Translations under genes and position numbers: made by a program
Notes under the pieces: model-generated
Told to the model about the DNA's origin: nothing
The model's database searches: none
What the model saw: only the letters and a program-made list of their open reading frames with translations
Source of the DNA: Gemmatimonadota bacterium
Lineage (GTDB): Bacteria; Gemmatimonadota; Gemmatimonadetes; Gemmatimonadales; Gemmatimonadaceae
Assembly: GCA_031127225.1 (NCBI GenBank)
Contig: JARIEV010000008.1
Coordinates: forward strand, 1 to 51,531
Reading direction: 5' to 3'
DNA length: 51,531 nt
Part shown: one piece after another, positions 4,861 through 48,427 of the stretch
Layout: the number at the start of each line of letters is the position of its first letter
Numbering within the stretch: the stretch's first letter is position 1

Positions 4861-4867
4861 CCGCGCC

Positions 4868-5485: not shown

Positions 5486-5693
5486 TGGCGGGGCGGGAGA
5501 GGGAAGAAGGACGAACGACGTACTGCTCAACTCTATCGATCTCCGGTCTTCCGCGCAGGCACCGGCGCGTGTCCGACGGCGCCGCCGGCACCGATGGGCG
5601 CAATGCAGGACGCGCCTGTCAGGGAATGCCTCTCACCGCGGCATGCATCGGCCCGTGACATTCACCGCTGAATGCATCGCCCCGGGAGACGAC

Positions 5694-8051: not shown

Positions 8052-8076
8052 CAACCCACCTTCACCGGAGCACCTC

Positions 8077-16323: not shown

Positions 16324-16854
16324 CTACGGCTCACACCAGAGATCGGCCACCGCGATGTCCGCGCGGAACGCCGCCGTGGCCGCCACGATCCCGATCCGCA
16401 ACACACTGCTCACGTTGAGCGGCGTGCTCAACGAGGCAGGGCGGAAGGCACCCCACTCGATCACCACGTGCGTCCACTCCGGCGACACCGGCAGCGGCGC
16501 GGCGTAATACTGCCATGGCGCGCGCGTATCGGCGGTGCGCAGATGCACGAAGTACGGACCGGGCGTGCCGCGCACCGTGAGCGCGAGGCCGCGGTACGCG
16601 CGCGCGTCGATTCCGGTCCCGGGCGGGTCACCCAGCGCGCAGGCCACCTGAATGAACCCACCGTTGCGCTCCAGCGACACGGTGCCCGTGAGCTGCAGGG
16701 CGCGGCGGCCATGGACCGTGGTCATCGCGCCGTGGGCCACGCTCACGCCCCCCATCACGCGGTCCGAAAACACCGCCCAGCGGCGCGACATCGCCGCGGG
16801 CGACGCGCCGAAATCATCGAGACGCTGAGGCTCCGGTGTCGTCCCCCCGCTCAT
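16324..16854 (-). CDS. CIA30 family protein
   Basis: 176 residues. The pattern WAVFSDRVMGGVSVAH, then SLERNGGFIQVAC, then YRGLALTVRGTPGPYFVHLRT is diagnostic of the CIA30 / NADH:ubiquinone oxidoreductase intermediate-associated protein 30 fold, a beta-sandwich found in complex I assembly factors and in bacterial proteins of unknown role. The ATG at 16854 overlaps the stop of the epimerase gene as ATGA, so the two are translationally coupled; an earlier in-frame start at 16875 would overlap more. Coupling to an exported NAD-binding epimerase suggests a common pathway, not respiratory complex I assembly; that is inference. Confidence 0.85.
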   Translation of the reverse strand: MSGGTTPEPQRLDDFGASPAAMSRRWAVFSDRVMGGVSVAHGAMTTVHGRRALQLTGTVSLERNGGFIQVACALGDPPGTGIDARAYRGLALTVRGTPGPYFVHLRTADTRAPWQYYAAPLPVSPEWTHVVIEWGAFRPASLSTPLNVSSVLRIGIVAATAAFRADIAVADLWCEP

Positions 16855-17969: not shown

Positions 17970-18052
17970 GATCGGGGGACTCGAGGGGAGGAACGGACGG
18001 GGCGCGAGGCAGCGAACGTGTGGCAACGACCGCGACGGGTCGCTGGGGTCAG

Positions 18053-18283
18053 CTAGCCGCCGAAGTCACCGCTGCGTGTGCCGCCGGTGCGTGTGGCGGT
18101 TGCACTGCCATTGCACGACTGCAGGATTCCGTTTGCATCCTCGACATAGTGCGGGATGTACTGTCCGGCGTGCAATGGGCATGGCGTGGCGGTACCATTC
18201 CCCCCGACCACGCCGTCCAGCTCGTCGTCTGACAGCGCCGCATCAGCGTCATGATGGGATGAAACAACGGGTTCACGCGACAT
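18053..18283 (-). CDS. Small peptide with double-glycine leader (candidate NHLM exporter substrate)
   Basis: 76 residues. Residues 17-28 read LSDDELDGVVGG, the classical double-glycine leader that C39 peptidase-ABC exporters cut after Gly28. That would release a 48-residue core, NGTATPCPLHAGQY onwards, with two cysteines (Cys35, Cys57), two histidines and a Gly/Thr/Ser-rich tail ending GDFGG. ATG at 18283 has TGAGG 8 nt upstream. Base composition is lower in GC than neighbours, as is the 79-bp leader region before it. It is the last gene of the cluster containing an NHLM peptidase/ABC exporter, which strongly suggests it is that exporter's substrate. No lanthionine synthetase, YcaO or radical-SAM gene is nearby, so the core may be unmodified or disulfide-bonded. 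Confidence 0.75.
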   Translation of the reverse strand: MSREPVVSSHHDADAALSDDELDGVVGGNGTATPCPLHAGQYIPHYVEDANGILQSCNGSATATRTGGTRSGDFGG

Positions 18284-18361
18284 ACGGCGGCCTCAGAGTG
18301 CGGAAAAGTGAGTGATACATAAAGACAACTTCATTATGGTACCGCCGACTCGGCGCCAGCG

Positions 18362-19054
18362 CTACTTCACCACGATGTCCGCCGCCTGCCGTGGGGCCAC
18401 TTCGTAGCTGCTCTCGTACTGTGCCGACAGCCCCGTCACCTGAATGGTCTGGGCGGTAGTTAGCGCCCGCAACGTGCTCGTGGGCACGCCCGCAAACAGG
18501 TGCACGAAGATCTGCATCTCCCCCGAGCCGTCGTTCACGTACAGCTTGTATCCGTAGGGCGAGTCGTCCTGGAAGGTCTGCGTCACGCGTCCTGTGACCC
18601 GCACCAGCTTCCCTTCGGTGGCCTCGCCCACCGCGCCCGTGGTCACCACCTCGGGCGCCACCGTGCGCGTGCCGCTCAGCAGCTGCACCGACGCCGACTC
18701 GGCCGACAAAATGCGGAACTTCGCCTCGTCCGCCAGCGTGCCGGTCACGCGCACGTGCGCGCCCAGCGCAAACGCGAGACGCGTCGTGAGCTTCACGTAG
18801 ATCCCAGCGCTGTTGTCCTGCAGCGCAAATCCGGGGTTGCCCATCGCCGATTCGAAGGCGCCGGGCGCCACCGTGACGTAGCCCTCCACGGTGGCCTTCG
18901 TGCCGGCGGCCTGCGCGCGGGCCTGCGCCACCGTCGGTACCGAGGGATCATCACTGCACGCGGCCAGCCCACCAACGGCCGCCGCGACCGCGAGGGCCAG
19001 CATGCCGGTGCGGGCGCGCCGCGCCACGTGGCGCGCCGTGAACGCCGTGATCAT
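18362..19054 (-). CDS. OB-fold lipoprotein
   Basis: 230 residues. The signal ends GGLAACSD, a good lipobox, so it should be lipid-anchored. The mature part appears to hold two OB-fold-like repeats: ATVEGYVTVAPGAFESAMGN with GFALQDNSAGIYVKL, and KLVRVTGRVTQTFQDDSPYG with YVNDGSGEMQIFVHL. This resembles DUF5689-type and nuclease-associated OB domains; ligand unknown. The ATG at 19054 follows the TGA of the ABC ATPase gene after 2 bp, so it is in the same operon. Placed between an uptake transporter and the double-glycine peptide, it could be an envelope accessory or immunity protein, but nothing in the sequence shows this. Confidence 0.75.
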   Translation of the reverse strand: MITAFTARHVARRARTGMLALAVAAAVGGLAACSDDPSVPTVAQARAQAAGTKATVEGYVTVAPGAFESAMGNPGFALQDNSAGIYVKLTTRLAFALGAHVRVTGTLADEAKFRILSAESASVQLLSGTRTVAPEVVTTGAVGEATEGKLVRVTGRVTQTFQDDSPYGYKLYVNDGSGEMQIFVHLFAGVPTSTLRALTTAQTIQVTGLSAQYESSYEVAPRQAADIVVK

Positions 19055-19056
19055 GG

Positions 19057-20148
19057 TCAGCTCGTCCGCAGCCGCATCGTGAGGCGGTTCAGGGTGTCTT
19101 TCCGTTCGTACTCCAGCGCATCCGTCATGCCGCGCAGCAGCACGACGCCCAGATCGTCGGGGGCGTCCTCGTTCTCCAGCGGATTGAAGGGCCCACCATG
19201 CCCTTCCCACACCAGCTCCAGCGTCTCCTCGGTTTCCGAGTAGCCGATGGACAGATCGACCGGCGCCGATGACAGGTGCGGCACGTACAGCTGCAGCGCC
19301 TCCTCCACCACCAGCAGCAGCCGCTCGCGCGTCGTGCGCGGCAGGATGTGCTTGTCGCAGAAGGCGATGATCTCCGCGTTCATCGCGTACAGATCGTAGT
19401 CGGGCGACGTGAAGCGCTGCGTGTAGCTGCGGATGCGGTGAATGAACGCGCGCGTCTTCTCGCGGGTGGGGTGGTCGAAGATCTGCGCCGGCGGCCCCTG
19501 CTCGTAGATCACCCCTTCGTCCATGTACATCACGCGCGACGACACGTTGCGGGCAAATTCCATCTCGTGCGTCACGATGATCATCGTCATCCCGTCGCGC
19601 GCCAGACTGCGGATCACCGCCAGCACTTCGCTCACCGTGGTCGGGTCGAGCGCCGAGGTGGGCTCGTCGAAGAGGATCACTTCGGGCTCCATCGCGAGGC
19701 AGCGCGCAATCGCGACGCGCTGCTTCTGCCCCCCCGACAGTTCGTCGGGGAGATGATCCGCCTTCTCGCCCAGCCCCACCACGCGCAGCAGGTCGCGCGC
19801 CTTCGCCTCGGCCTCCTGCGGCGACTTCCCCAGCAGCCGCATTGGGCCGAGCGTGAGATTCTCCAGGCAGGTGAGATGCGAGAACAGGTTGAACCCCTGG
19901 AACACCATGTTCATGCGCTGCCGGATTTTTGGCACGTCGACGTCGGCGCCCAGCACGTTCGTGCCGTCAAACCAGATGGCGCCGCTGGTGGGCTGCTCCA
20001 GCAGGTTGAGACAGCGCAGGAACGTGCTCTTGCCGGTGCCCGAGGGGCCGATGATCGAAATCACCTCGCCCTTTTGAATGTCGCAGGAGATGTCCTTCAG
20101 CACGGCCACGGTGCCGAACTGTTTCGCGAGCCGTTCGACACGGATCAT
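19057..20148 (-). CDS. Polar amino-acid ABC transporter ATPase fused to an RsbW-like domain
   Basis: 363 residues; GlnQ-type ATPases are about 245. Residues 1-245 are a full ATPase: [12 protein letters not shown] (Walker A), [14 protein letters not shown] (Q-loop), [15 protein letters not shown] (signature), [13 protein letters not shown] (Walker B) and VTHEMEFA (H-loop). From about 250 a second domain resembles anti-sigma HATPase proteins: [16 protein letters not shown] (N-box position, but the usual Asn is absent), [15 protein letters not shown] (G1-like) and [18 protein letters not shown] (G2-like). ATG overlaps the permease stop as ATGA. It powers import through the neighbouring permease; the extra domain may link uptake to a partner switch. 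It probably does not bind ATP in the normal GHKL way. Confidence 0.9.
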
Positions 20149-21749
20149 GCGGTGCTCCGCGCCTGACGGCGCTGCCGGGGATCAGTCCGACGCTCGAGGG
20201 CATCGAGCGCCCGCGTGAGGACCCACGCGATGAGGAAATACAGGATGGCGACCAGCACCAGCGGAAAGAAAGCGTCGAAAGTGCGGCTGCGGATGATGTC
20301 ACTGGCCTTGGTGAGGTCCTGCACCGCAATGTAGCCCACGATCGAGGTCATTTTCACCAACGAAATGAACTCGCCCTTGTACACCGGCAGCACCCGCTGC
20401 ACCGTCTGCGGCAGCACAATGTGCGTGAACGTGGCGACCTTCGTGAAGCCCATGGAGAGGCCGGCTTCCGTCTGGCCGCGGTCGATCCCCTCGATCCCCG
20501 TGCGGAAGATCTCCGCCACATAGGCCGCGAAGTTCATACCGAAGGCCAGCACCGCCACCACGACCGGACTGATGTTCACCGAGGCGAACACCACGTAGAA
20601 CACCAGCATGAGCAGCACCACCACCGGTGTGCCGCGCAGCACCGCGATGTAGCCCATCGCCACGCGCGACAGCAACCGGTGCTCGGACATGCGCAGCGCG
20701 CACACCAGCGCGCCCAGCAGTGTGCCGAACAGCGTGGACAACAGTGCAATCAGCACCGTGGTCTGCAAGCCGTCCAGCAGCAGCAGATAGCGCTGTTCCT
20801 GAATCAGATTGGACTGGATGCTGGCGCCGATGCCCTCGAGCCACGACGGCGCCGCCGCGTTGTTCGCGTCGAGGCCGAGCGCGCCGGTGGCACCACCCGG
20901 CTTGCTCACCATCATGCGTTGCGCATTTTCGTAGTACGTCGTGGAGAAGGCCACCCGCTTCCGACGCTCGGGCGTGTCGGACATGCCGGTCACCACCATA
21001 TCGATTTTCCCCGACTGGAGCGCGGGGATGAGCGCCATGAATTTTGAGTTGGCGAAGACCACTGGGCGATGCAGCAGCGCCCCGAGACGCCGCGCCAGTT
21101 CGCCGTCATGTCCGGTAATGCGTCCGTCGCCGTCTACGAAACTGAATGGTTCGCGCGTGGCCGACACGCCGATCGTGAGCGGCTCTCCCGTGGGGGAGGG
21201 CGGAATGTCCGGTTCGTTGTACGGACTCAGGTCGGGTTTGAACCAGCGCGTCTTCATCGCACTCAGCGTGCCGTCCCGCCGCAGCGAGTCGAGGGCGACG
21301 TTCACCGCTGCCAGCAGCGCCGTGTCGCCCGGACGCACCGCCACGGCGGTGTTTTCGGCGGTGAGCGGTTCGGCCACCAGCGTCAGATCCAGGTTTTTCT
21401 TCGTGACCTGCAAGGCGCCCGGAAAGGCCGTGACCACCGCATCGAGCTGTCCGGCGCGGATCGCGGCCACGGCGTCCATGACGTCGTCGAACGTCTTGAT
21501 GTCGGCCTTCGGAAAGCGCTCCAGGACGATCTGTTCGCCGCTCGAGCCGGCCATCACGCCGATGCGCGCCGTGGCGGCGTCGTCGAGAGTGGTGATCGGG
21601 GCGTCCGTGCGTTGGCAGCCGGCGGCCGCGAGCGCCAGCAGGCCGCTCATCACGCCGCCCATCAGGCGTACGAACCGTCCCGCCCGCGTCGCCCGTCGTC
21701 GCGCGGCATCCTGTCGGCCCATCACGGGCTCGCGCATGAACGTCTCCAT
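20145..21749 (-). CDS. Polar amino-acid ABC transporter, substrate-binding domains fused to permease
   Basis: About 534 residues. A lipoprotein signal ends [12 protein letters not shown] (Cys45 from this start). Two tandem type-II substrate-binding-like regions follow: a first one ([18 protein letters not shown], residues ~50-170) lacking a clear lobe repeat, and a second ([21 protein letters not shown] with [13 protein letters not shown], ~190-300). The C-terminal permease (~310-520) has [20 protein letters not shown] and the EAA-like loop [20 protein letters not shown]. The ATG at 21749 with TGAGG upstream is preferred over GTG 21791; a Met nearer the signal (21722) is possible. Stop overlaps the ATPase start. 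Imports a polar amino acid or analogue; substrate not predictable. Confidence 0.85.
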
Positions 21750-21859
21750 CGCCTCAGGGGTCGGATGCGCAGCCTGCACCGGAATCACCACGCGCCCGAC
21801 GGGTACATCGAACCATCGCCGGCGCGATCACGCCGGACGACCACGACGCCAACAGACCG

Positions 21860-24826
21860 CTACACCAGCTGACGGCGCACGAGATCGCGGAATACGCCGT
21901 CTTCCGCCATCAACGCCGCGTACGTGCCGGACTGCACGATCCGTCCGGCCACCATCACGTGAATCCGGTCGGCATTGATCACGGTGCTGAGCCGGTGCGC
22001 GATCACCACCCGTGTGGCCTGCAACCGGTCGAGACTCGCGCTCACCACCGCTTGCGTCGCGTTGTCCAGCGCACTCGTGGCTTCGTCGAAAAAGAGCACC
22101 CGCGGCCCCTGCGCCAGCGCCCGCGCGATCAGCAACCGCTGTCGCTGGCCGCCGGAGAAGGTGCCGCCCCCTTCGCTGATCATGGTGTGCATCCCCATGG
22201 GCATCAGCGTGATGTCCTCCTCCAGCGCCGCGCGCCGCGCCGCGTCCCACGCATCATCGATGGTGAGCAGCGTGCTCCCCACGATGTTCCGGTAGATATC
22301 CCCCGGCATGATCTTGCTGTGCTGCAGCACCACGCCCAGCTGCCGCCGCACGGCGGAGACATCCAGCGCGGCCAGATTCTGCCCGTCGTACTGCACCGTC
22401 CCGCGCTCGGGCGTTTCGAAGCCCAGCAGCAGGCGCAACAACGTGGACTTCCCCGACCCCGACGGCCCCACGACCGCCACGAATTCCCCCGCGCGCACCT
22501 CGAGCGACACGTCATCGAGCACGGGCGGCCCCGAGGGGTCGTAGCGGAACGTGACGCGGCTCAGCGCAATGTCCCCCGACAGCTCGCCGGGATCCTGCTG
22601 GTTGGCCGCGACTTCGGGGATGGCCTCGAGGATGGGACGGACGCGCTGATACAGCGGCTGCACACCCAGCACGGTCATCGCCGTGCTCCCGAGCGAGATG
22701 GCCGCCATCAGCACCTGCGTGAACGCCGCGTTGAACGCCAGAAACGTGCCCGTGGACATCCCGCCGTCACCCGTGGACGACGCCACGCCGCCGAACACGG
22801 CCACCACGGCCAGCACCGGGAGCGCCCCCTGGAAGGTGGTCAGCAGATTCGTGGCCAGCCGCGCCTCGTACGACACCCGCCGCTTCTCGCTGAACGTGGA
22901 CGCCCACACGCCAAACGCGTACCCCTCGGCCCCCGCCACCCGCAGCTTCGAAATACCGGTCAGCAACTCGAGCACCACGCCGGCCAGCTTCCCCTCCAGC
23001 CGCTGCTCCACGCGCGAGCGCTGCAGCTGGCGGTACCCCACCGCCACCGTGACACCCGTCGTGAGGGCCAACACCCCCATCGCCAGCAGCGACAACCGTG
23101 GGTCGTAGTACACCAGCAGCCCCACGCTCGGCAGCGCCGTGAGCGCCGTGAACACGGCCCCCGTGACCGCCCCCGACAGCACCTGACGGATGTTCGAGAA
23201 CGCCATCGTGCGGGTGCCCAGATCGCCCGACGAGAATTGCCGGAAAAACGATGCCGGCAACCGGAGAATCCGGTCCATCACCGCCGCGTTCATCGTCGCG
23301 TCCAGCCGGTTCTCCACCCGCAGCATGGCCAGCGACCGGGTCACGGTGAACAACGCCGCGGCGATCGACGCCACCGCCAGGCCGAGCCCGAGCTGCATCA
23401 GCGCCCCACGCTGCGCCTGCGGCACGAGCGTGTCAAAAATCAGCCCGGTGGCCATCGGCATGACCACCGCCAGCGCACCACCCAGCAGCGCCATCAGCAA
23501 CACGCGCCGGAGATCGGGACCGCAGTCGCGCAACCCGAGCGCCAGCAAGCGGGCACCCGTGACCGCCTGGGCGGCCATGCTGGGGTAAAACATCGTCGCA
23601 CCGGGCGCGATGGTGGACGCCGCCGTCGGCGTGATGGGGGTCGTGGTGCCCGCCGTCGGGTCGTACAGGCTGTAGCTGGCGTGCGACGTGGGGAGCAGCG
23701 CCACCGGCAAGCCGCTCTCGCGCCGGAACCCCAGCAGCGCCCCCTGATCGGTTCGCCACCACCCGTCGGTGAGCTGCACCGGCCGGGTGCGGGTCTGTGA
23801 GGCCTTGGCAATTTCCACCAACGGGTTGGCGGCGCGCGCGCGCGCATCGTCGGTGCGCTTGGGTGGCACACGCATCGTGATGCCCATGACGCGGCCCACG
23901 GCCGCGCAGGCCAGAAACAGCGGATCGTCGCTGGCCTCGGCCGGCGCTGACGCTGCCGGGCTCCCACCCAACACCGCGGTGAGCTGCGCGAGCGCCGCCT
24001 GCTGCGTGCGCAGACGGCGCGCCGCCTTCTCCGTGAGCCGGTTGTATTCGTCCACGGCCACCAGCGACGTGTTGAACAGCTCGCACGACAGCACCAAACT
24101 GTGCAGCGTCAGGAGCGCCGGCCACACGGACGCCTCGCGCAGCGCCGTCTCGGTGTCCACGGCGTCCACGGCCGAGTCCTGCAAGAGTTGCAGCCACGTG
24201 TCAGGCGTAATGGGCACGCGCGACGGCACCCCTCCCGCCTCACTGCCGGCCGTGTCCGCGCTGGTCGCCTCCATGTCGATGAACAGCGCGGCACCGGCGG
24301 TCTGGCGCAGCCAGGCCACGCCGCGCGCCGGCCGCACCCGTTGCCCCTGCCCCACCGCCCCCGTGGTACCTGGCATGACCAACACGTCGGCCCGCGGCTT
24401 GGGCGTGATGTGACGCGTGACGCCCGACGACACGCCCGCCACCCACCGGTCGATCCCCGCCACCACCTCCGCCATCGCCGCCGCGTCATCGGCCGGATCG
24501 GCCGTCGACGCCACGGCGGCGCGCAGCGCGTCGAGGGGCACCTCCACCACCTCCGTGCCCACCACGCCCGAGGCCAGCAGGGCGAGACCGAAGTCGGTGT
24601 CCATGCCGAACAGCAGATCGCCGGCCCGCGCGCTCAGAAAGTGATGGCGAATCCCGCGTTGCGACGCGTCACCCGTGCGCACGAGGAACAGTTCGAGCTG
24701 GCCGGTGCGCACCAGCCACACGCGTGCCGCGCCGTCCAGCAGGAACGGGGCGTTCCCCGCCACCGCGCGCGGGGTGCCGGTCTCGAACAGGGCGCGCAGC
24801 CGCGCCGACGTGAACGCGGGCGTCAA
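21860..24826 (-). CDS. NHLM-type bacteriocin ABC transporter, ATP-binding/permease protein (second ABC)
   Basis: 988 residues, the large partner of NHLM exporters. The first ~300 residues are a cyclic-nucleotide-binding-like region (VWLVRTGQLELFLVRTGD) and linker, then a transmembrane ABC domain (~420-700) and a C-terminal ATPase with GPSGSGKSTLLRLLLGFE, FSGGQRQRLLIARAL, VLFFDEATSALDNAT and VIAHRLSTV. It lacks a C39 cysteine protease domain. The start is a TTG at 24826 overlapping the peptidase/ABC stop as TTGA; conserved sequence begins soon after, so a later start would cut the domain. It probably forms a heterodimer with the product of the preceding gene. The next gene downstream is 110 bp away. 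Confidence 0.92.
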   Translation of the reverse strand: MTPAFTSARLRALFETGTPRAVAGNAPFLLDGAARVWLVRTGQLELFLVRTGDASQRGIRHHFLSARAGDLLFGMDTDFGLALLASGVVGTEVVEVPLDALRAAVASTADPADDAAAMAEVVAGIDRWVAGVSSGVTRHITPKPRADVLVMPGTTGAVGQGQRVRPARGVAWLRQTAGAALFIDMEATSADTAGSEAGGVPSRVPITPDTWLQLLQDSAVDAVDTETALREASVWPALLTLHSLVLSCELFNTSLVAVDEYNRLTEKAARRLRTQQAALAQLTAVLGGSPAASAPAEASDDPLFLACAAVGRVMGITMRVPPKRTDDARARAANPLVEIAKASQTRTRPVQLTDGWWRTDQGALLGFRRESGLPVALLPTSHASYSLYDPTAGTTTPITPTAASTIAPGATMFYPSMAAQAVTGARLLALGLRDCGPDLRRVLLMALLGGALAVVMPMATGLIFDTLVPQAQRGALMQLGLGLAVASIAAALFTVTRSLAMLRVENRLDATMNAAVMDRILRLPASFFRQFSSGDLGTRTMAFSNIRQVLSGAVTGAVFTALTALPSVGLLVYYDPRLSLLAMGVLALTTGVTVAVGYRQLQRSRVEQRLEGKLAGVVLELLTGISKLRVAGAEGYAFGVWASTFSEKRRVSYEARLATNLLTTFQGALPVLAVVAVFGGVASSTGDGGMSTGTFLAFNAAFTQVLMAAISLGSTAMTVLGVQPLYQRVRPILEAIPEVAANQQDPGELSGDIALSRVTFRYDPSGPPVLDDVSLEVRAGEFVAVVGPSGSGKSTLLRLLLGFETPERGTVQYDGQNLAALDVSAVRRQLGVVLQHSKIMPGDIYRNIVGSTLLTIDDAWDAARRAALEEDITLMPMGMHTMISEGGGTFSGGQRQRLLIARALAQGPRVLFFDEATSALDNATQAVVSASLDRLQATRVVIAHRLSTVINADRIHVMVAGRIVQSGTYAALMAEDGVFRDLVRRQLV

Positions 24827-26994
24827 CTGGCGATCAACCGCGCGTAGGCGCCATCGAGCGCTTTCAGCTCATCGTGCGTGCCGCGCTGCACCACGACGCC
24901 GCGCTCGAGCACGATGATCTCGTCGCAATCGCGGATCGTGCTGAGCCGGTGCGCCACGATCAGACAGGTGCACCCGCGCCGGCGCAGGTTGTCGTCCACC
25001 CGCTTTTCCGTGGTGGCATCGAGCGCGCTCGTCGCTTCGTCGAGCACCACGATGGACGGATCGCCCACCAGCGCGCGCGCGATCTCCAGCCGCTGGCGCT
25101 GCCCGCCGCTGAAGTTGCGTCCCCCTTCGTCCACGCGCCCATCGTATCCGCCCGGCCGCGCGGCGATGTCCTCGTGAATGCACGCATCGTTGGCCGCCTG
25201 CACGATGCGCGCCTCGGCCAGCGTGCTGTCCCACATCGTGAGGTTGTCGCGCAGCGTACCGTCGAACAAAAAGATCTCCTGATCCACCAGCCCGATCGAA
25301 TCCGTCAGCACGCGGCGCGGAAAGGCACGGCGCGGCTGCCCGTCGAACAGCACCTCACCTGACCACGGCTCCTGCAGCCCGGTGACCAGACGCGCCACGG
25401 TGGACTTACCGCTGCCGGTGCCGCCCACGAGTGCCACGCGCTCACCGGGACGCACCGTGAGGCTGAAGTCCGTGATCAGCGGCGGCTCGAGGCGGCTGTA
25501 TCCGAAGGTCACGTTCCGCAGCTCGATCTCCCCCGACAGCTTCACCACCCGTGCCGCATCCGCCATCGTCCCCGCTTCGGCCTCGGGGGCCAACTGCGGA
25601 TCGATCGGGTACTGCATCACGTCGTCCAGCCGGTTCATGTCGGCTTCCAGCATCTGCACGGTGGCGCCGAGTCCCACCAGCTGCGTCACCGGCCCCATGA
25701 AGCTGGCCGTCAGGGTCTGAAACGCCATCAACGCGCCGATGGTAAGCACGCCATCCATCACGCGCAGCCCGCCGATCCACAAAATCGCGACCGTGGTGAG
25801 CGCCGACAGCACCGTGGGCACCGAATTCACGAGCAGCGATGGCACCGCAAGTTCACCGGTGCCCGTGACCACCTTCGCCTGAAAGCCCGCCCATCGCGTG
25901 AAGAAGTCCGACTCGTTGCCGCCGGCCTTCAACGTTTCGATGGACTGCAGCCCGTACATCGTGGTGCCCACGAGATTGCCCTGATCGGCCTGCAGCTTGC
26001 GGTTGCCGGCCGCCCGATGCTTCCCGACCAGGCGGAGCGCCACCACGTTCAGCACGGCGGCCACGAGCGCCACCAGCGCCAGCACGATGTCATACGAGAA
26101 CAACACCACCAGATAAAACACCGACGTAAGCAAACTCAGCGCCGTGGTGGCGAGCTGCCCCGACAGCACCCCCGCGATGCTGTCGTTCGTCGCCACGCGC
26201 GAACCGATGTCACCGCTTGAGCGCTGCGTGAAGAACGTCATCGGCGCGCGCAACACATGCCACAGGAATTGCCCCGACGAGGCCACCGACAGCTTGGTCT
26301 CGAAGCGCAGCAGATAGTGTTGCTGCAACCACGTGGCCGCGCTCGTGATCAGCATCGTGGCCACCATCACGAGCAGCAGCGGACGCACTAGCGTGGTGGA
26401 CTTGGCCACCAGCACGCCGTCGATGAACAGGCGCGTGAAGGTGGGCGACGCGAGCCCGGGGACCACCAGCAGGAGCCCCAGCAGCACCGAGAAGAGCAGC
26501 GCCGCGTGCGAGCCCTTCAGCCGGCGACCGAGGGCCGTGACGATAGAACGGGACTGCCCGCCGCGCTGGAAGCTGGCCGACGGGCGCAATTCGAGCACCA
26601 CGCCCGTGTAGGAACGATCGAACTCGTCGTCGCTCACCGTGCGTCGGCCGCCCGCGGGATCGCTCAGGTACACCACGCCCCGGCCAAACCCCTCCACCAC
26701 CAGGAAGTGATTGAACTTCCAGAAAATGATCAGCGGCCCCTGCATCTCGCGCAGCGCCGCGATCTCCTTACGCCACCCCTTCGCGTCCATCCCGTACGTG
26801 CGGGCGGCACGGATCACGTTGCTGGCCTTGCTGCCGTCGCGCGAGACGCCGCACGCGATACGCAGCTCCTCGAGCGGGACGATCCGGCCGTAGTACTCCA
26901 GCACGATGGCCAGCGAGGCGGCGCCGCACTCCACGGCCTCCATCTGGATGACCGTCGGCGTGACCACGCGGCGCGTGCGCAGGTTAAAGGCCAA
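24823..26994 (-). CDS. NHLM-type bacteriocin ABC transporter, C39 peptidase/permease
   Basis: 723 residues. The N-terminal C39 peptidase domain carries the catalytic Cys23 in MEAVECGAASLAIV, His96 in FWKFNHFLVVEG and Asp112 in YLSDPAGG; this triad cleaves leaders after Gly-Gly. Six transmembrane helices follow (~165-445), then the ATPase with VGGTGSGKSTVARLV, FSGGQRQRLEIARALVG, IVVLDEATSALD and IVAHRLSTI. It should process and export a double-glycine peptide; the 76-residue peptide at the end of the operon is the obvious candidate. The open frame starts at a TTG (26994) that overlaps the adaptor gene by 11 bp; a GTG at 26967 is an alternative and both retain Cys23. Confidence 0.94.
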   Translation of the reverse strand: MAFNLRTRRVVTPTVIQMEAVECGAASLAIVLEYYGRIVPLEELRIACGVSRDGSKASNVIRAARTYGMDAKGWRKEIAALREMQGPLIIFWKFNHFLVVEGFGRGVVYLSDPAGGRRTVSDDEFDRSYTGVVLELRPSASFQRGGQSRSIVTALGRRLKGSHAALLFSVLLGLLLVVPGLASPTFTRLFIDGVLVAKSTTLVRPLLLVMVATMLITSAATWLQQHYLLRFETKLSVASSGQFLWHVLRAPMTFFTQRSSGDIGSRVATNDSIAGVLSGQLATTALSLLTSVFYLVVLFSYDIVLALVALVAAVLNVVALRLVGKHRAAGNRKLQADQGNLVGTTMYGLQSIETLKAGGNESDFFTRWAGFQAKVVTGTGELAVPSLLVNSVPTVLSALTTVAILWIGGLRVMDGVLTIGALMAFQTLTASFMGPVTQLVGLGATVQMLEADMNRLDDVMQYPIDPQLAPEAEAGTMADAARVVKLSGEIELRNVTFGYSRLEPPLITDFSLTVRPGERVALVGGTGSGKSTVARLVTGLQEPWSGEVLFDGQPRRAFPRRVLTDSIGLVDQEIFLFDGTLRDNLTMWDSTLAEARIVQAANDACIHEDIAARPGGYDGRVDEGGRNFSGGQRQRLEIARALVGDPSIVVLDEATSALDATTEKRVDDNLRRRGCTCLIVAHRLSTIRDCDEIIVLERGVVVQRGTHDELKALDGAYARLIAS

Positions 26995-28240
26995 AGAGGC
27001 TCCGCACGAACGGCAGCACCAGCTCGATGGGGCGCTGCGTGCGCTCGGTGATCAGCGCCGTCGCCATCGTCCCGCTGAACAGTCCCACCGCCGGACCGGC
27101 GCCTGAGGTCCAGCGGTACCCGCTCACGGTGGCCGTATCCGGGGTAAGCGTCACGAACACTTCGAACGGCGTGCCCTTGGCCGACAGCGTCGTCACCAGC
27201 CCGTCGTTCTGCAGCACCCGCTTCATCCCCTTGGTCGTGGCCGGAAAGCTGGACACCGTACGCACCCGGCCGGTGATGTAGCCGAATTCCTCGGGCTTTA
27301 CCGTGACCGGCGCCAGGCGCACCGTCATACCGGGCAGCACCTTTTTGCCATCGGCCGCCGGCAGATAGATCAGCGCTTCCAGCGGACCCGCCACGGGCTC
27401 GAGGCTCAGCACCGACTCGCCGGCCGTCACGAGCTGCCCATCGGCCACGATGACTTCCACCACCCGGCCATCAGCGGGGCTCACGACCGCCGAGGCCGCG
27501 CGCACCCGCTGCACGAGACCGGCAACCGTGCGCTCCGCCTTCTCCGTGGTCAGGCGCGCCGTTGTCATCTCCTGCGCCGCCCGGTTCTGCCACGTCCCCT
27601 CGGCCAGGGCAATCTCTTTCAGCTTGGTCCGCGCCGTCTCCTGCCGCGCCTGTTCGGTGAGCGCCGCGCGGCGCGTGTCGAACAGCTTGTCTTCCAGCAG
27701 CAGGCGCTGCGCCAGCAACGTTTCTTCCGCCTTCACGCGCTCCGCGTACCACCGCGCCTGCTCCCCGGCCTCGGCGATCGTGCGCGTGGCCTCCTCACGC
27801 TGGCTCCGGAACAGCGTGGTCTGCTGTTCCACGTCCACCGCCTGAAACTGCGCCAGCGCGGCCTGCTGAAGGCGCGCCGCGGTGAGCTCCGCCCGGGCGT
27901 TCTCGAGTTCGACGAGGAGATCGGGCTGCGCGACGTTGCCCAGCACCTGCCCGCGCTGCACCAGATCACCCGCCGTGACCGTGAAGCCGGTGAGCCGCCC
28001 ACCTGACACCGATACGATCTGCGACACGCCGCCGGTGCGGAGCAGAATGCCTTCGCCGGTCACCTGCGTGGGAATTTCGCCAACCACCGACCAGAACAGC
28101 GCCATCACCACGATCGCCGCCAACGCGCCCAGCGCCAGCCACGCCCGCGGGCTCGTCACCCGCAGCGCCCGATCGAGTTCGTCGGGCGACGACAGTTGAT
28201 CGAGTGCGGCTTTCCGGAACAGCGACGATTGACCGCTCAC
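26984..28240 (-). CDS. NHLM-type HlyD-like secretion adaptor
   Basis: 418 residues. A short cytoplasmic N-terminus is followed by one membrane helix (WLALGALAAIVVMALFWSVV), a lipoyl/biotinyl-like half (GRLTGFTVTAGDLVQRGQVL) and a long coiled coil (~110-250, LENARAELTAARLQQAALAQ onward), then the matching beta half (ADGRVVEVIVADGQLVTAGE). This is the membrane-fusion protein layout used by peptide exporters; the size and position before the C39 transporter match the NHLM HlyD-like subunit. The start is GTG at 28240, overlapping the ATPase stop as GTGA. It should connect the two-ABC exporter to an outer-membrane channel; no TolC-like gene is present here. Confidence 0.93.
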   Translation of the reverse strand: MSGQSSLFRKAALDQLSSPDELDRALRVTSPRAWLALGALAAIVVMALFWSVVGEIPTQVTGEGILLRTGGVSQIVSVSGGRLTGFTVTAGDLVQRGQVLGNVAQPDLLVELENARAELTAARLQQAALAQFQAVDVEQQTTLFRSQREEATRTIAEAGEQARWYAERVKAEETLLAQRLLLEDKLFDTRRAALTEQARQETARTKLKEIALAEGTWQNRAAQEMTTARLTTEKAERTVAGLVQRVRAASAVVSPADGRVVEVIVADGQLVTAGESVLSLEPVAGPLEALIYLPAADGKKVLPGMTVRLAPVTVKPEEFGYITGRVRTVSSFPATTKGMKRVLQNDGLVTTLSAKGTPFEVFVTLTPDTATVSGYRWTSGAGPAVGLFSGTMATALITERTQRPIELVLPFVRSLFGL

Positions 28241-29046
28241 GCCGACGTGGGCGCCGAGAGTTCCTGCGTGAAGCGCATCTCGGCCGTGTAGCGCAGTGCC
28301 GCGAAGCGGGCCAGCAAATCGGCTTCCGACACACCACGACGTTCATCGCCCTCGAGGTCGGCAATCACATTACCGCGATGCATCATCACGGTGCGATCGC
28401 CGTACTGCACCGCCTGCTCCATGCTGTGCGTGACCATGAACGCGGTGAGCTTGTGCTCGCGCACCACCGCGTCGGTCACACGCATCACCTGTTCGGCCGC
28501 GCGCGGATCCAGCGCCGCCGTGTGTTCGTCCAGCAGCAGCAACTGCGGCCGACGGAGCGTGGCCATCAGCAGCGTCACCGCTTGACGCTGGCCGCCCGAG
28601 AGCGTGCCCATCGACGCCTCGAGGCGCCCCTCGAGCCGCATGCCGAGCGACGCGAGCAACGTGCGGTAGCGATCGAGCGCCGCGCGATCGAGTCCGCGGC
28701 GCAGTCCGCGTGACAGCCCGCGCAGCTCCGCCATGCGCATGTTCTCCGCCACGGTGAGCGTGGGACAGCTCCCCTTGAACGGATCCTGAAACACGCGGCC
28801 GATCAGACCGGCGCGCTGATGCTCGGCCAGACGCGTCACGTCGGTGGTGCCGATGCGGATCGTGCCGGCGTCCGGGAGGAACACGCCGGCGATGGCATTC
28901 AGGATGGTGGACTTCCCCGATCCGTTGCTGCCGATCACCGTGAGGAACTGGCCTTCGGGGAGCGAGAGATCGATGCCGCGCAGCGCGTGCACCTGCTCAC
29001 CGCCGGGCTGTTCAAAGGTCTTCTCGAGATTGGTGATCGTGATCAT
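28237..29046 (-). CDS. ABC transporter ATP-binding protein (TrpZ-like)
   Basis: 269 residues. ATPase motifs: GSNGSGKSTILNAIAG (Walker A), FQDPFKGSCPTLTVAENM (Q-loop), LSGGQRQAVTLLMA (signature; slightly atypical Q-R-Q-A-V) and LLLLDEHTAALDP (Walker B, with DEHT in place of DEPT, usual for the TrpXYZ-like family). The C-terminus ends QELSAPTSA without an added domain. The ATG at 29046 overlaps the upstream permease stop as ATGA and its stop overlaps the HlyD GTG start, showing that the uptake transporter and the exporter are translated from one message. It energises import through the fused binding protein/permease upstream. The solute is unknown. Confidence 0.92.
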   Translation of the reverse strand: MITITNLEKTFEQPGGEQVHALRGIDLSLPEGQFLTVIGSNGSGKSTILNAIAGVFLPDAGTIRIGTTDVTRLAEHQRAGLIGRVFQDPFKGSCPTLTVAENMRMAELRGLSRGLRRGLDRAALDRYRTLLASLGMRLEGRLEASMGTLSGGQRQAVTLLMATLRRPQLLLLDEHTAALDPRAAEQVMRVTDAVVREHKLTAFMVTHSMEQAVQYGDRTVMMHRGNVIADLEGDERRGVSEADLLARFAALRYTAEMRFTQELSAPTSA

Positions 29047-31040
29047 CGGGTGGCTCCAGTGCGGGAGGCGCCCGACCGCAGCTTCGGTAGGACGAGCGCG
29101 GCCAAAACGAACACCGCCGTGGCGAGTTTGAGATCGACCGGGTTAAGCCCGATGCGCAGCGCCACCGCGATCAGCGCGCGGAAGCCCAGCGCGCCGAGGG
29201 CCACCATGATGATCGTGGCGCCCAGCCCCCAGCGTTTCGGCTTCAGCGTTTCGCCCAGGATCACGGCCGCCATACCGCCCACCAGCGTGCCCACGCCCAT
29301 CCCCACGTCGGCGAAGCCCTGATACTGCGCAATGAGCGCGCCAGAGAACGCCACGAGCCCGTTGGCCAGCGCGAGTCCCAGTTCGACCATCCGGCGACGA
29401 TCGACGCCCTGCGCCGTGATCATGGCCGGGTTGTCACCCACGGCGCGCATGGCGAGCCCGAAGTCCGTGCGCAGATACCAGACCAGCACGAGTCCCAACA
29501 CCACCATCATCGCGGCGAACAGCAGCCCGAACGCGAGGTCCGCGCTCCAGCCGGCCGTCATCGGAAACACGTCGTGCAGAGTGGTCGCCACCGAGGGCTG
29601 GTCGAGCATCGAGAGATTCGACCGCCCCATCACGCGCAGATTCACCGAGTACAACCCGGTCATCACCAGAATGCCCGTGAGCAGTTCCGTCACGCCGAAG
29701 CGCGTGTGCAGCACGCCGGTGAGATAGCCCGCCGCCATGCCGACCACGAACGCCGCCAGTGTGGCCAGCACCGGGTGCACCCCGCCCAGAATCATCGCCG
29801 CCGCCACGGCGGCGCCGAGGGGGAAGCTCCCGTCGGGGGTGATGTCGGGAAAGCGCAGCACGCGTGAACTGAGGTACACGCCCCACGCCAGCGCCACGTA
29901 GGCCAACCCCTGCGCCAGCGTGGACCACCAGAGCGCCCACGGGGAATCCGACGGGGCGGCCGGCGCCGCCGGCGTCGCCTTTGCCGCGCCCGCCTCTGCC
30001 GCACCGGCCTTCGCCGCACCCGATGCCGGCGCACCCGATGCCGGCGCACCCGATGCCGGCACCACGTTGTCCGCGCGATCGATGACCGCCTGCGGGATCA
30101 CCACCTCATAGCGTTTCGCCGCCGCCAGATCGACGTCCAACCGGGCCTTGTTCGTGGACTGAAACGGGATCGTGGCCGGCGACGTGCCGCGCAGCACCCG
30201 GATCATGATCAGCCCCATGTCGTAGCCGTTGTCGCGGAAGCTCGCGCCGAGCGCGACGGGCGGGCCGGGGGTGCCGGTGCTGGCCGACACGAACGGCATG
30301 CCGGCGTCGCGGGTCGCCTTCACCATCGCCGGCATCCCACCCACAATCATCACGCTCGGGATCTGCATGATCCCCTGCGCCCCCTGCGCCCGCAGCGTCT
30401 GCACCCCCGTCACGATGTCGGAAGGACTCGTGCAGGCCACGATCACCAGCTTGACGCCCAGCGCCGCCGCGGCCGCCTTGGTCTTTCCGATGTAGAACTC
30501 GGCAAAGGGATCCGACGGATCGTACAACGTGCCCCACGTTTTCACGGCGGGAAACACTTCGATCGCCACCGCCAGTGACTTGTCGACCGGCAGCGGAATG
30601 TCAGCGCCGGTGACATTCGGACGGTGATCCGTGGGGGTGGTCCCGGCGCCGATGAGATAGGGATTCGCCACCGCGCCAAAAATCAGCGGCCGGTCGGTGA
30701 TCACCTTCATCGCGCTCTGCAGCGTCACAGTGGCCAGCGTGGCCACGTGCGTCACGCCACGCTGCTTGAACTCGTTCGCGATCAGCGACAGGGTGGGGAT
30801 GTCCCCCTGCGCGTTGCGTTCCAGGATCGTGATGGTCGAATCGGCCACGTACCCCGAGTCGGCCAGCGCCTGGAGGAAGCCATCCTTGGCCTCCTCGAGC
30901 GGGGCAATCGCCGCCACCTGCATCAGGCCGATCACGGGGCGCTCGGGGGCTGGCGCCTCACCACCGCAGGCCGTGAGCACAAGGGCCAGCACCGCCACGC
31001 GGCACCGGGGCGGCCGTAAGTGGCCTCGTGTCAGAAACAT
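29043..31040 (-). CDS. ABC transporter substrate-binding protein fused to permease (TrpX-TrpY-like)
   Basis: 665 residues. Lipoprotein signal ends VLTACGGE. Residues ~30-345 are a type-I ABC_sub_bind fold (PVIGLMQVAAIAPLEEAKDG, TDRPLIFGAVANP, NVTGADIPLPVDKSL, FRDNGYDMGLIMIRVLRG). A low-complexity Ala/Gly/Pro linker (~345-385) containing 15-bp DNA repeats joins it to a permease (~395-655, YVALAWGVYLSSRVLRFPDI with FPLGAAVAAAMILGG, then FADVGMGVGTLVGGMAAVI). Separate TrpX and TrpY proteins are the norm; here they are one chain. ATG at 31040. It heads the transcription unit; the divergent kinase starts 178 bp away. TrpXYZ systems import tryptophan or other aromatic amino acids in streptococci; here the solute is unassigned. 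Confidence 0.9.
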   Translation of the reverse strand: MFLTRGHLRPPRCRVAVLALVLTACGGEAPAPERPVIGLMQVAAIAPLEEAKDGFLQALADSGYVADSTITILERNAQGDIPTLSLIANEFKQRGVTHVATLATVTLQSAMKVITDRPLIFGAVANPYLIGAGTTPTDHRPNVTGADIPLPVDKSLAVAIEVFPAVKTWGTLYDPSDPFAEFYIGKTKAAAAALGVKLVIVACTSPSDIVTGVQTLRAQGAQGIMQIPSVMIVGGMPAMVKATRDAGMPFVSASTGTPGPPVALGASFRDNGYDMGLIMIRVLRGTSPATIPFQSTNKARLDVDLAAAKRYEVVIPQAVIDRADNVVPASGAPASGAPASGAAKAGAAEAGAAKATPAAPAAPSDSPWALWWSTLAQGLAYVALAWGVYLSSRVLRFPDITPDGSFPLGAAVAAAMILGGVHPVLATLAAFVVGMAAGYLTGVLHTRFGVTELLTGILVMTGLYSVNLRVMGRSNLSMLDQPSVATTLHDVFPMTAGWSADLAFGLLFAAMMVVLGLVLVWYLRTDFGLAMRAVGDNPAMITAQGVDRRRMVELGLALANGLVAFSGALIAQYQGFADVGMGVGTLVGGMAAVILGETLKPKRWGLGATIIMVALGALGFRALIAVALRIGLNPVDLKLATAVFVLAALVLPKLRSGASRTGATR
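30021..30063. repeat. 15-bp tandem repeat, 3 copies, in a SBP-permease linker
   Basis: Three head-to-tail units of CGATGCCGGCGCACC (last one diverges at its end) encode the G-A-P-A-S linker of the fused binding protein/permease on the minus strand. The length is in frame, so slippage would only lengthen or shorten the linker. Confidence 0.85.
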
Positions 31041-31218
31041 GAAGAATCCGGGGAGGGGGAGCGCGTCGGCGCGCGGGCGCGCGGACCCGTGCGCACCTGT
31101 CCCGGCAAACTACTCCCCGCCAGCAGCGGCCGCGAGCACAGGATATACTGCGTGCATCGAAGCGGTTGCGGACGCACGCGCCGCGCTCCCTCTGCCGCCG
31201 GCCGGAGCCGGTTCTCCC
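31041..31218. promoter_or_regulatory. Divergent intergenic region between the transport operon and the kinase
   Basis: 178 bp separate the first transport gene (minus) from the kinase GTG at 31219 (plus). A candidate -10-like GGATATACT is on the plus strand at 31141-31149, 70 bp before the kinase start. No convincing -35, operator palindrome or riboswitch is visible. The region must contain the minus-strand promoter too; the best AT-rich stretch is around 31034-31055. Confidence 0.35.
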
Positions 31219-35319: not shown

Positions 35320-35329
35320 TCGTTCGGAC

Positions 35330-38188
<2,859 letters not shown>

Positions 38189-38198
38189 GGACGTTCCC

Positions 38199-39623: not shown

Positions 39624-39633
39624 CGCTGGTCGG

Positions 39634-40299: not shown

Positions 40300-40308
40300 G
40301 CCGCGACC

Positions 40309-40593
40309 TCAGCTGCGGATTTCGAAGATCTTATCGAAGCCGCTGATCTTGAGCACATCGAGCACCACCGACGTCGGCGACGCGAGCACCACGGCGCCGC
40401 CCTTGGCCTTGGCCATCTTGGCCGTCATCAGGAGCACGCGCAGCCCGGCGCTGCTCACGTACTCGAGCTGACTGAGGTCGATCGTGACGGAACTCGCGTC
40501 CCCGGCCAACAGGGCCTTCAGCTCCGCTTCGTGAGCGGCCGACGTAAAACCGTCCAGACGACCGGCAAGGGTGTAGGTGGCAGCTACGGACAT
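40309..40593 (-). CDS. STAS-domain anti-sigma factor antagonist
   Basis: 94 residues, the size of RsbV/SpoIIAA. TYTLAGRLDGFTSAAHEAEL, VTIDLSQLEYVSSAGLRVLL and VLDVLKISGFDKIFEI are the STAS strands. The phosphorylatable serine is one of the two in YVSSAGLR; the family uses the second-type D-S-S-G-L position, here V-S-S-A. Classical role: the unphosphorylated form binds an RsbW-like kinase, releasing a sigma factor or other target. The partner phosphatase and anti-sigma kinase are at 46844-48423. ATG at 40593; a GPP34 gene follows 9 bp on. An AT-rich -10-like CACTATATTT is at 40669-40678 (minus), 75 bp upstream. Confidence 0.9.
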   Translation of the reverse strand: MSVAATYTLAGRLDGFTSAAHEAELKALLAGDASSVTIDLSQLEYVSSAGLRVLLMTAKMAKAKGGAVVLASPTSVVLDVLKISGFDKIFEIRS

Positions 40594-45037: not shown

Positions 45038-45047
45038 CGCCCGCGTC

Positions 45048-46559
45048 GTGCACACGACTCTCGAGGTCCCGGCCCGCCTCGAGGCGCTGGCGCTCGTGCA
45101 CGCCCACGCGCGGGCGCTGGCGTCGCTGGTGGGGAGCGATGCCGCGCGCACGGCTGCGGTCGAACTCGCGTGCGAGGAAGGGTTCACCCTGATCCTCGAC
45201 CGCGTGGACGGGCCGACCGATTCCGTCGTGCGGATGCACGCCACGATCACGGCGCTGGCGCTCGAGATCGTCTTCGATGACCGCGAAATCCCGCCGCTCT
45301 CGGTCGCCGAGGGGCAGGGCGCTGGCGCCGCCGCGTCACTCGACGCCATCGACCTCGCGGTGGTGGCCCGACAGCTCATTCGTCACAGCGCCGACGAGGC
45401 GCGTTGGATTCCCATGGGACGGCAGGGGAACCGGCTTTCGCTCGTCTTTCAGCGCCGGGATCCCGATATCACCATGTCGGTCCCGCCCGAGTCGCTCATT
45501 CCGTTCTCCGAGGACGCGCCGCTCGCCCCGGCGCAGGAGTACCTCGTACGCGTGGCCGGCACCGACGGCGCGGATGACTGGGCCCAGATCGCACGCGCCA
45601 TCTACCGCACGTACGGCTTCAGTTACGCCGACGATCTGTACATCCCCGACCGGATCCGGGAGCTCAACCGCGCGGGGCACGTACTCTCCATCGTGGCCAC
45701 CACGATGCAGGGCGAGGTCGTGGGCCACTACGCCCTCGACGTGCGCGGCTTCGGCCAGCTGGGTGTCACGCCCTGCGCCACCGGCGAACTCGGCAAAGCA
45801 GTGGTGGATCCGGCGCACCGCAGCCGCGGCCTGATGGAGCGTATGCGGCGCCTCACCGAAGAGCGCGCGCAGACACTGGGGCTGCTCGCGGTGTTCAGCC
45901 AGCCCACCATGAAACATCCGTTCAGTCAGCGCGCCAACGAACGGCTCGGGGCCCGCGCCTGCGCCATCAACCTCGGGCTGGTGGGCGGTACCGTGGAGTT
46001 GAAGGGGATCGCGGTGGCTGACACCGCCGAGCGCACCAGCCTGGCCGTGTACTTCCAACCGCTGGTGCCGCCGGCAGCGCGCACCATTCATCCGCCGGCG
46101 CAGCACCAGGCCATGCTGCAGCGCACCTACGACGGCTGCGGCATCCCCGTCAGCATCATCGCCAGCGGTGAGCCCACCGGTGACAGCGACATCACCGTGA
46201 CGTTCGTAGGCGGCCTCGATTTCGGACTGATCGGGGTGCGGCACGCCGGCGCGGACATCGGCACGGCCCTGCGCGCCGCGCGCGACGAACTCGTGCGACG
46301 CGCGGGGGCACGGGTCATCTTCCTCGACGTGCGTCTCGACGACGCGGGGTGCGCGGCCGCCTGCGCCGTGGCCGAACAGCTCGGCTTTTTCTACGGCGGC
46401 CTATGCCCGCACTTCAGCGCGGGGCACGATGTCCTGCGGCTGCAATCCATCGACGTGCCGATCGCCGTGGAGCAACTGGCCGTAGCCGGCCCCTTCGCGC
46501 GCGAGATTCTGGACTACGTCATCGCGGATCGCGCGCGCGTCGAGCGGGTCGGCAGTTGA
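45048..46559 (+). CDS. RsbW-like HATPase domain fused to a GNAT acetyltransferase domain
   Basis: 503 residues. The first ~145 residues resemble an anti-sigma HATPase (AVELACEEGFTLILDRV, LEIVFDDREIPPLS, GRQGNRLSLVFQRRDPD), but the N-box asparagine is missing as in the ABC ATPase fusion. Residues ~165-290 form a GNAT domain (DDWAQIARAIYRTYGFSYAD, GEVVGHYALDVRGFG, GELGKAVVDPAHRSRGLMER, where R-S-R-G-L is the acetyl-CoA loop). A C-terminal ~200 residues with GVRHAGADIGTALRAARDEL may be a degenerate second GNAT. The start is GTG at 45048, 10 bp after the kinase; an open frame to 44883 would overlap the kinase tail. Probably links partner switching to acetylation of an unknown target. Confidence 0.85.
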   Translation: MHTTLEVPARLEALALVHAHARALASLVGSDAARTAAVELACEEGFTLILDRVDGPTDSVVRMHATITALALEIVFDDREIPPLSVAEGQGAGAAASLDAIDLAVVARQLIRHSADEARWIPMGRQGNRLSLVFQRRDPDITMSVPPESLIPFSEDAPLAPAQEYLVRVAGTDGADDWAQIARAIYRTYGFSYADDLYIPDRIRELNRAGHVLSIVATTMQGEVVGHYALDVRGFGQLGVTPCATGELGKAVVDPAHRSRGLMERMRRLTEERAQTLGLLAVFSQPTMKHPFSQRANERLGARACAINLGLVGGTVELKGIAVADTAERTSLAVYFQPLVPPAARTIHPPAQHQAMLQRTYDGCGIPVSIIASGEPTGDSDITVTFVGGLDFGLIGVRHAGADIGTALRAARDELVRRAGARVIFLDVRLDDAGCAAACAVAEQLGFFYGGLCPHFSAGHDVLRLQSIDVPIAVEQLAVAGPFAREILDYVIADRARVERVGS

Positions 46560-48423: not shown

Positions 48424-48427
48424 GTGC

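Follow-up and report, generated by a model that had tools for sequence, protein, structure and literature searches.

Why should an exporter of ribosomal peptides share an operon with two binding-protein-dependent ATP-binding cassette (ABC) transport systems? The question is raised by a 51,531-nucleotide stretch of a Gemmatimonadota draft genome (83.65% complete; contig JARIEV010000008.1, assembly GCA_031127225.1; hereafter, the window), in which nine minus-strand open reading frames (ORFs), eight genes and one short peptide, run from position 31040 down to 18053. These ORFs encode an NHLM exporter, a TrpXYZ-like transporter, a second transporter with an apparently circularly permuted substrate-binding protein (SBP), a lipoprotein and a double-glycine precursor (Table 1); the nine-gene arrangement was proposed in the initial annotation and is confirmed, each ORF lying where it had been placed. 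The block is real and selected, not a chance join. We infer, with a probability of roughly 0.4, that it is an export-and-sense system for small unmodified ribosomal peptides, with export, sensing, signalling to STAS and SpoIIE proteins and the role of the TrpXYZ-like system as its putative components.

The NHLM exporter and the operon layout

The HlyD-like adaptor, ABC1 and ABC2 proteins all score above the NCBIfam cut-offs of the NHLM families (331 bits against 156 for TIGR03794, 1074 against 853 for TIGR03796, and 913 against 709 for TIGR03797), in agreement with the initial identification of the exporter. ABC1 also matches Peptidase_C39 (PF03412, 110 bits; Pfam) and, judged by eye, appears to contain the C39 catalytic residues. 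The host genome has one TIGR03797 match above the cut-off. We know of no role for many NHLM peptides. The operon resembles the NHLM (NHLP/Nif11) export system (Haft et al. 2010, PMC2887384) in the combination of HlyD, C39-ABC and second ABC proteins with double-glycine precursors. It differs in three respects: the precursor leader matched none of the NHLP and Nif11 family models, no modification enzyme was detected by Pfam among the operon genes, as initially reported, and two binding-protein ABC systems are included in the operon.

Five of the eight junctions overlap, by 4 nt (TrpXY/TrpZ, TrpZ/HlyD, ABC1/ABC2 and SBP-permease/ATPase) or by 11 nt (HlyD/ABC1). ABC2 and the SBP-permease gene are separated by 110 nt (68 nt with a start at GTG 21791), the ATPase and lipoprotein genes by 2 nt, and the lipoprotein and peptide genes by 78 nt. 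Thus, the original statement that most junctions overlap holds, with the reservation that the peptide gene, because of its 78-nt distance from the lipoprotein gene, may be on a separate transcript; a scan of the window from 16500 to 34000 for sigma-70-like promoters yielded 0 sites. Lipoprotein signals in the operon genes were judged by eye.

Table 1. Features of the operon, candidate partner genes in the window, and binding-protein genes at other NHLM loci
Feature	Position	Strand	Basis or remark
ABC_sub_bind TrpX-like lipoprotein fused to BPD_transp_2 permease	29043..31040	-	Pfam; alternative start 30998
ABC ATPase, presumed partner of the TrpX-like/permease fusion	28237..29046	-	Pfam ABC_tran; 4-nt overlap
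NHLM HlyD-like adaptor	26984..28240	-	TIGR03794 above cut-off
NHLM ABC1, C39 peptidase/permease/ATPase	24823..26994	-	TIGR03796 above cut-off; Pfam Peptidase_C39
NHLM ABC2 permease/ATPase	21860..24826	-	TIGR03797 above cut-off
Putatively circularly permuted SBP_bac_3 lipoprotein fused to BPD_transp_1 permease	20145..21791	-	Pfam; likely start ATG 21749
C-terminal half of SBP fold, placed first	21228..21647	-	residues 49-188 match 127-264 of NF008426
N-terminal half of SBP fold, placed second	20868..21179	-	residues 205-308 match 26-130 of TIGR01096
GlnQ-type ABC ATPase with C-terminal RsbW-like domain	19057..20148	-	Pfam ABC_tran and HATPase_c_2
RsbW-like (HATPase_c_2) domain without N-box Asn	19072..19389	-	33.1 bits, cut-off 27.4
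Lipoprotein, weak OB-fold similarity	18362..19054	-	NF033674 below cut-off
Double-glycine peptide precursor, 76 aa	18053..18283	-	ORF, leader comparison
Precursor leader ending in VVGG	18200..18283	-	leader comparison
Precursor core, C-x2-H...H...C pattern	18056..18199	-	core comparison
STAS protein, candidate partner of the RsbW-like domain	40309..40593	-	operon-upstream cluster
GNAT protein, N-terminal part RsbW-like by eye, candidate partner	45048..46559	+
Response regulator-SpoIIE, candidate partner	46844-48010	-
RsbW/HATPase_c_2, candidate partner	48007-48423	-
Peripla_BP_6 after NHLM ABC2, other Gemmatimonadota	L058 8491-9678, L059 12429-13511, L060 10514-11752, L061 7865-9064 and seven more
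Peripla_BP_6 adjacent to NHLM genes, outside Gemmatimonadota	L175, L176, L180, L186, L199, L203, L205

The first transporter shares with the TrpXYZ tryptophan transporter an ABC_sub_bind protein, a BPD_transp_2 permease and an ATPase; the differences are that SBP and permease are fused here and that the protein scores 111 bits in the TrpX equivalog test, far below the cut-off of 390. A general pairing of TrpXYZ with NHLM export was considered and rejected: no TrpX or TrpY match of at least 60 bits was seen near 69 non-Gemmatimonadota loci of the permuted-SBP/permease family (defined below), and among the 46 other NHLM loci found in Gemmatimonadota, the 25 that were fetched contain neither TrpXYZ nor a permuted SBP.

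A permuted binding domain and an RsbW-like ATPase tail

In the SBP-permease protein, the second half of SBP_bac_3 precedes the first, in both NCBIfam profile matches and PDB alignments; on these alignments, the binding domain is circularly permuted. Comparison with 11 relatives from the genus shows the same order of C-half and N-half in all of them, singly or in tandem, and a binding protein of 277 aa that stands alone in a Pelotomaculum locus (L182) is likewise permuted; for these reasons, assembly collapse was rejected as the source of the odd SBP. Permutation of an SBP also has a precedent with a solved structure, TpMglB-2, a circularly permuted ligand-binding protein proposed to be a receptor (PMC4990184); it is likewise a membrane-tethered ABC binding protein, but it binds sugar, belongs to another SBP class and is neither permease-fused nor RsbW-linked. 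Tandem paralogues of the permuted-SBP/permease gene are found in L054 (7857-10178, on contig C83 of the same genome as the window), L052 and L080-L082, where the stretches fetched include no similar ATPase gene; in L054 a divergent gene for a STAS-APH fusion protein adjoins the tandem gene. Gene calls outside the window were codon-model or longest-ORF calls, except for annotated plasmid records.

All domains of an SBP_bac_3/GlnPQ-type importer (SBP, permease and ATPase) are present in the second system according to Pfam. Like the GlnPQ-type amino-acid transporters with SBPs fused to the permease (PDB entries such as 6h30 and 4g4p), it combines SBP_bac_3 fused to a permease with a GlnQ-type ATPase; unlike them, it has a permuted binding domain, the amine-binding Asp is mostly replaced and the ATPase carries an RsbW-like tail. 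At the ligand positions of LAO/HisJ structures, the carboxylate-binding Arg is kept in 29 of 29 aligned members, and the column of the amine-binding Asp contains Asp in 7 and another residue in 22; the window SBP has Ala at the column of the alpha-amine-binding Asp of amino-acid SBPs. This transporter appears to be sensor-like, probably with a non-standard ligand. Thus, the original description of two amino-acid importers is right about the importer parts but fits the second system poorly, given the permutation, the RsbW-like tail and the missing Asp.

The same residues bear on the suggestion that the peptide is released, digested outside the cell and retaken as amino acids by the two importers. 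Both importers are indeed complete, each with binding protein, permease and ATPase, but the replaced alpha-amine Asp argues against uptake of amino acids, C39 is the sole protease in the operon by Pfam, and there is no obvious gain from exporting a peptide as food. Nutrient exchange by re-import is thus unsupported as originally stated, and we consider it highly improbable.

To follow the module formed by the permuted SBP/permease and the ATPase with the RsbW-like domain, the best 80 of 200 relatives from one scan were kept; they fall into 79 loci, 69 of these outside Gemmatimonadota. An ATPase lies on the same strand within 3.5 kb of the permuted SBP/permease in 58 of the 69, and an ATPase with the fused RsbW-like domain is encoded in 57. 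Within 6 kb, the 46 loci with enough flank contain genes for SpoIIE (22 loci), STAS (18) and standalone RsbW (15); at least one such partner-switch gene is present in 23 of them and all three in 13. The module is rare in phylum-wide samples (4/398 and 5/395 genomes at 1e-100).

The fused domain resembles RsbW/SpoIIE/STAS modules in its HATPase_c_2 match and in the occurrence of SpoIIE, STAS or RsbW genes close to half of those relatives whose flanks are long enough; it differs from RsbW in being fused to an ABC ATPase, in lacking the N-box Asn and in usually lacking the G1 Asp. The N-box column is Asn in 0 of 63 fused domains and Gln in 49, and the G1 column is Asp in 6 of 63, a loss of kinase residues. 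A regular expression for ExxxN matches 21/21 standalone RsbW proteins and also somewhere in 23/62 fused domains; on its own, it is therefore unspecific. A PDB sequence search with the RsbW-like domain gave a best E of 0.54. NHLM export is known; searches of the open-access literature turned up no description of the ATPase-RsbW module or of a connection between it and NHLM export.

Upstream of the operon, the window contains, at 34726-49090, genes for two hybrid kinases, a response regulator-adenylate cyclase, STAS, a response regulator-SpoIIE, RsbW, GNAT and two GPP34 proteins. Part of this cluster adjoins the operon in a second genome (G289) as well. Of 61 genomes searched, four, all operon-bearing, have a full-length match to the GNAT/RsbW-like gene, and G219 has a partial one.

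Conservation in the genus and recurrence beside NHLM exporters

A search with the SBP-permease in 30 same-genus genomes, that of the window included, gave operon-type matches in five (G000, G289, G358, G397 and G399) and paralogues in others. In G397 (locus L048), which represents a second species of the genus, the eight genes occur in the same order and are accompanied by the peptide. The order is spread over two contigs in G289, where L212 ends in ABC1 and L050 extends from ABC2 to just past the ATPase, with the lipoprotein beyond the contig end. Only both ends are seen in G399, in which TrpXY adjoins the same upstream kinase gene (L214) and L051 carries SBP-permease to peptide; in G358, the 3' half of the operon lies on L049, and TrpXY was not found at 1e-60. 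In G219, TrpXY-TrpZ lies where a contig ends and an ATPase-RsbW/SBP-permease pair lies elsewhere, with no NHLM match at 1e-180. Scattering of the genes among relatives, which had been named beforehand as refuting the arrangement, is not seen: carriers keep them together, and the proposal that export and binding-protein transport genes form one block is borne out and extends to conservation of the block.

The dN/dS ratios between the window and L048 for seven genes (the SBP-permease gene was left out of this comparison) range from 0.10 to 0.25, the lipoprotein being highest at 0.25; all seven tested genes are under purifying selection. The TrpX-like/permease fusion is 88% identical at the amino-acid level between these two loci. 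The flanking kinase gene was found, at 1e-200, in only three of the 41 genomes searched, all three operon-bearing. That unrelated transport genes simply came together in one lineage, as a neighbourhood without function, would fit the presence of operon-type genes in only 5 of the 30 genomes and the above absence of TrpXYZ and the permuted SBP from the 25 other Gemmatimonadota NHLM loci fetched and of TrpXY from the surroundings of the 69 family loci; yet the tight overlaps, the selection, the conservation across several species and the fact that NHLM genes of Bacillota and of other Gemmatimonadota also have binding-protein genes as neighbours make this explanation distinctly unlikely.

This recurrence was examined at NHLM loci of other types. 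NHLM ABC2 was detected in 47 of 395 Gemmatimonadota genomes at 1e-180, with 21 above the cut-off; of the 46 places not of the window type, 25 were fetched, namely all 18 above the cut-off and 7 of the 28 below. A Peripla_BP_6 protein is encoded after ABC2 in 11 of these 18 loci (Pfam, all 11) and in none of the seven below the cut-off. Outside Gemmatimonadota, 17 NHLM loci (13 from Bacillota, 4 others) were chosen because their genomes carry the module, and seven of them, all from Bacillota, have a Peripla_BP_6 gene on the same strand within 210 bp of NHLM HlyD or ABC2. A DUF7005-like gene (PF22541) is commonly next after Peripla_BP_6 in the above-cut-off Gemmatimonadota loci, and such genes also occur beside NHLM exporters on Spirosoma and Pseudanabaena plasmids (L221 11611-12765, DUF7005 by Pfam; L223 1643-2866, DUF7005-like by similarity); DUF7005 may be an unrecognised NHLM companion.

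The module itself can accompany NHLM export. In L182, an extension of locus L100 from a Pelotomaculum metagenome-assembled genome, NHLM genes, ten double-glycine peptides, a permuted SBP, a permease and an ATPase-RsbW are encoded on one strand, and a further permuted SBP-permease gene lies on the opposite side. NHLM C39-ABC was found in 10 of 42 module-bearing genomes searched. In the class of G401, the module is present in 9/113 genomes at 1e-70, and among seven of its module genomes searched anew, NHLM was found in six at 1e-150, five of them above the cut-off. In 16 genomes with both, module and exporter are at most about 50 kb apart in four (G401, G430, G541 and G542, all Bacillota), on the same contig but far apart in two and on different contigs in ten; in G430, G541 and G542, precursors lie between the two. 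A rough model, with rough locus counts and different contigs scored as not near, predicts such proximity in 0.98 genomes, against the four observed (P 0.0125); all NHLM matches in these genomes were fetched except G539:C79 and G536:C40. Because exporter and periplasmic receptor recur elsewhere, peptide signalling, which the initial annotation had offered alongside nutrient exchange, gains weight. On a contig of Clostridium thailandense (L200/L201), double-glycine peptides, two of them Cys-rich, flank a permuted-SBP/permease and ATPase-RsbW about 20 kb from an NHLM exporter.

Hypervariable precursors and a proposed export-and-sense circuit

The double-glycine peptide recognised initially is real. 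One precursor lies downstream of the lipoprotein gene in the window and one in L048, where more may follow, since the contig stops just behind the peptide gene. L049 has five precursors, one of which (L049_8695) lacks a start codon in the position where the others have theirs. L051 has four double-glycine ORFs, and the cores of two of them (positions 964 and 333) are degenerate. In a comparison of nine precursors, including L049_8695 and leaving out the L051 ORFs at 964 and 333, the leaders share 86% nucleotide identity and the initial 90 nt of the cores 63%, a value of 60% being obtained with shuffled cores. The pattern C-x1-2-H...H...C is present in 9/9 cores compared with 0.7% of shuffled cores, and C-x2-4-C...H...H is present in 9/11 peptides of L182 and L181, both patterns having been defined after inspection of the peptides; eight of the ten L182 peptides (3733-10030) have C2H2-zinc-finger-like cores.

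The direct repeats in L049 and L051 include the leader, the lipoprotein gene's 3' end and fragments of a TonB-receptor-like gene, so that the arrays (L049 6977-9400, L051 1-1445) are interleaved with repeated lipoprotein-gene ends and TonB-receptor-like gene starts; the precursor array is evidently a product of tandem duplication. The peptide stretch of the window has no direct repeats of this kind. Across the 79 family loci, double-glycine ORFs were found in five (11 ORFs; 0 in reversed sequence), exclusively in Gemmatimonadota, Pelotomaculum or Clostridium.

Arrays of this kind, with conserved leader, hypervariable core and tandem duplication, could also signify a bacteriocin locus, in which the arrayed peptides are antibacterial, the lipoprotein confers immunity and the transporters time production by sensing nutrient state or competitors. 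Such precursors are known from NHLM systems (PMC2887384, PMC3140520), and cyanobacterial systems likewise have precursors in arrays, with 1-16 diverse precursors recorded (PMC3140520). The lipoprotein is also the fastest-evolving of the seven genes tested. However, it matched no immunity family (NCBIfam, Pfam, PDB sequence search), and killing alone would leave the C-H-H-C pattern in all nine counted cores unexplained; we regard a bacteriocin locus as rather unlikely. The OB-fold originally assigned to the lipoprotein is a weak call (22.2 bits against NF033674, the YgiW/YdeI family, with a cut-off of 35), and its best E in a PDB sequence search was 0.23.

The four-ligand patterns would be accommodated if the C-H-H-C cores and the C2H2-like cores of Pelotomaculum bound extracellular zinc or copper and the transporters recovered the complexes or their breakdown products; a TonB receptor plug gene adjoins the L049 array. 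Against metal handling, ligand spacing is variable, none of ten peptides has a zinc-finger match above the Pfam cut-off, the binding proteins are of amino-acid-type rather than metal-type families, and the cysteines may simply pair as disulfide. This explanation appears very unlikely.

In the export-and-sense reading, HlyD-ABC1-ABC2 would cleave the precursor after VVGG and export the core, as family membership suggests. The permuted-SBP/permease and ATPase-RsbW would act mainly as a transporter-coupled receptor for an outside ligand with a carboxylate, possibly derived from the released peptide or else a cue that times peptide production. The RsbW-like domain would tell a STAS/SpoIIE partner-switch, here most likely the set at 40.3-48.4 kb of the window, whether the receptor is occupied or what its transport state is, and the TrpXYZ-like system, a second binding-protein transporter, would replace the single binding protein that accompanies many other NHLM exporters. 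The diversity of the peptides would fit recognition or competition among neighbours. BceAB-type transporters double as peptide sensors, and some pheromones are re-imported via Opp; the idea of export combined with ABC sensing is shared with these systems, but the families differ.

Several observations weigh against this reading. NHLM genes lie within 10 kb of only one of the 69 family loci (L100), so the receptor module usually works without an exporter close by. None of eight plasmid NHLM loci (4 Alphaproteobacteria, 3 Cyanobacteriota, 1 Bacteroidota) shows a neighbouring same-strand gene for a similar or annotated binding protein; a full importer is present on the other strand in two and a DUF7005-like gene is near in two. 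Because adjacency is seen in Gemmatimonadota and Bacillota loci and not on these plasmids, some groups commonly have a periplasmic binding protein next to an NHLM exporter, but this is not universal; the window has an elaborate version of this arrangement, and the pairing of exporter and importer is not general. No partner-switch gene is nearby in 23 of the 46 loci with enough flank, and in the window SpoIIE and STAS are outside the operon, 9-17 kb upstream of it; STAS is a candidate binding partner of the RsbW-like domain. The GNAT gene was not found in operon-bearing G358 (82% complete), and shared ancestry explains equally well why flanking genes are limited to species with the operon. Finally, the ligands of amino-acid SBPs are small, unlike a 48-residue peptide.

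A bolder form of the export-and-sense reading, which we think improbable, is a new class of peptide circuit: exported hypervariable C-H-H-C peptides would be read, whole or as a fragment, by a permuted-SBP transporter whose kinase-dead RsbW-like domain signals to STAS/SpoIIE, yielding strain-specific dialects. If this were true, the receptor module without an exporter would represent widespread, undescribed transporter-coupled signalling. An ABC importer with an RsbW-like ATPase, often with SpoIIE and STAS, would join nutrient-type transport to partner-switching, and an exporter linked to receptors of defined families would offer a direct way to probe the purpose of NHLM peptides.

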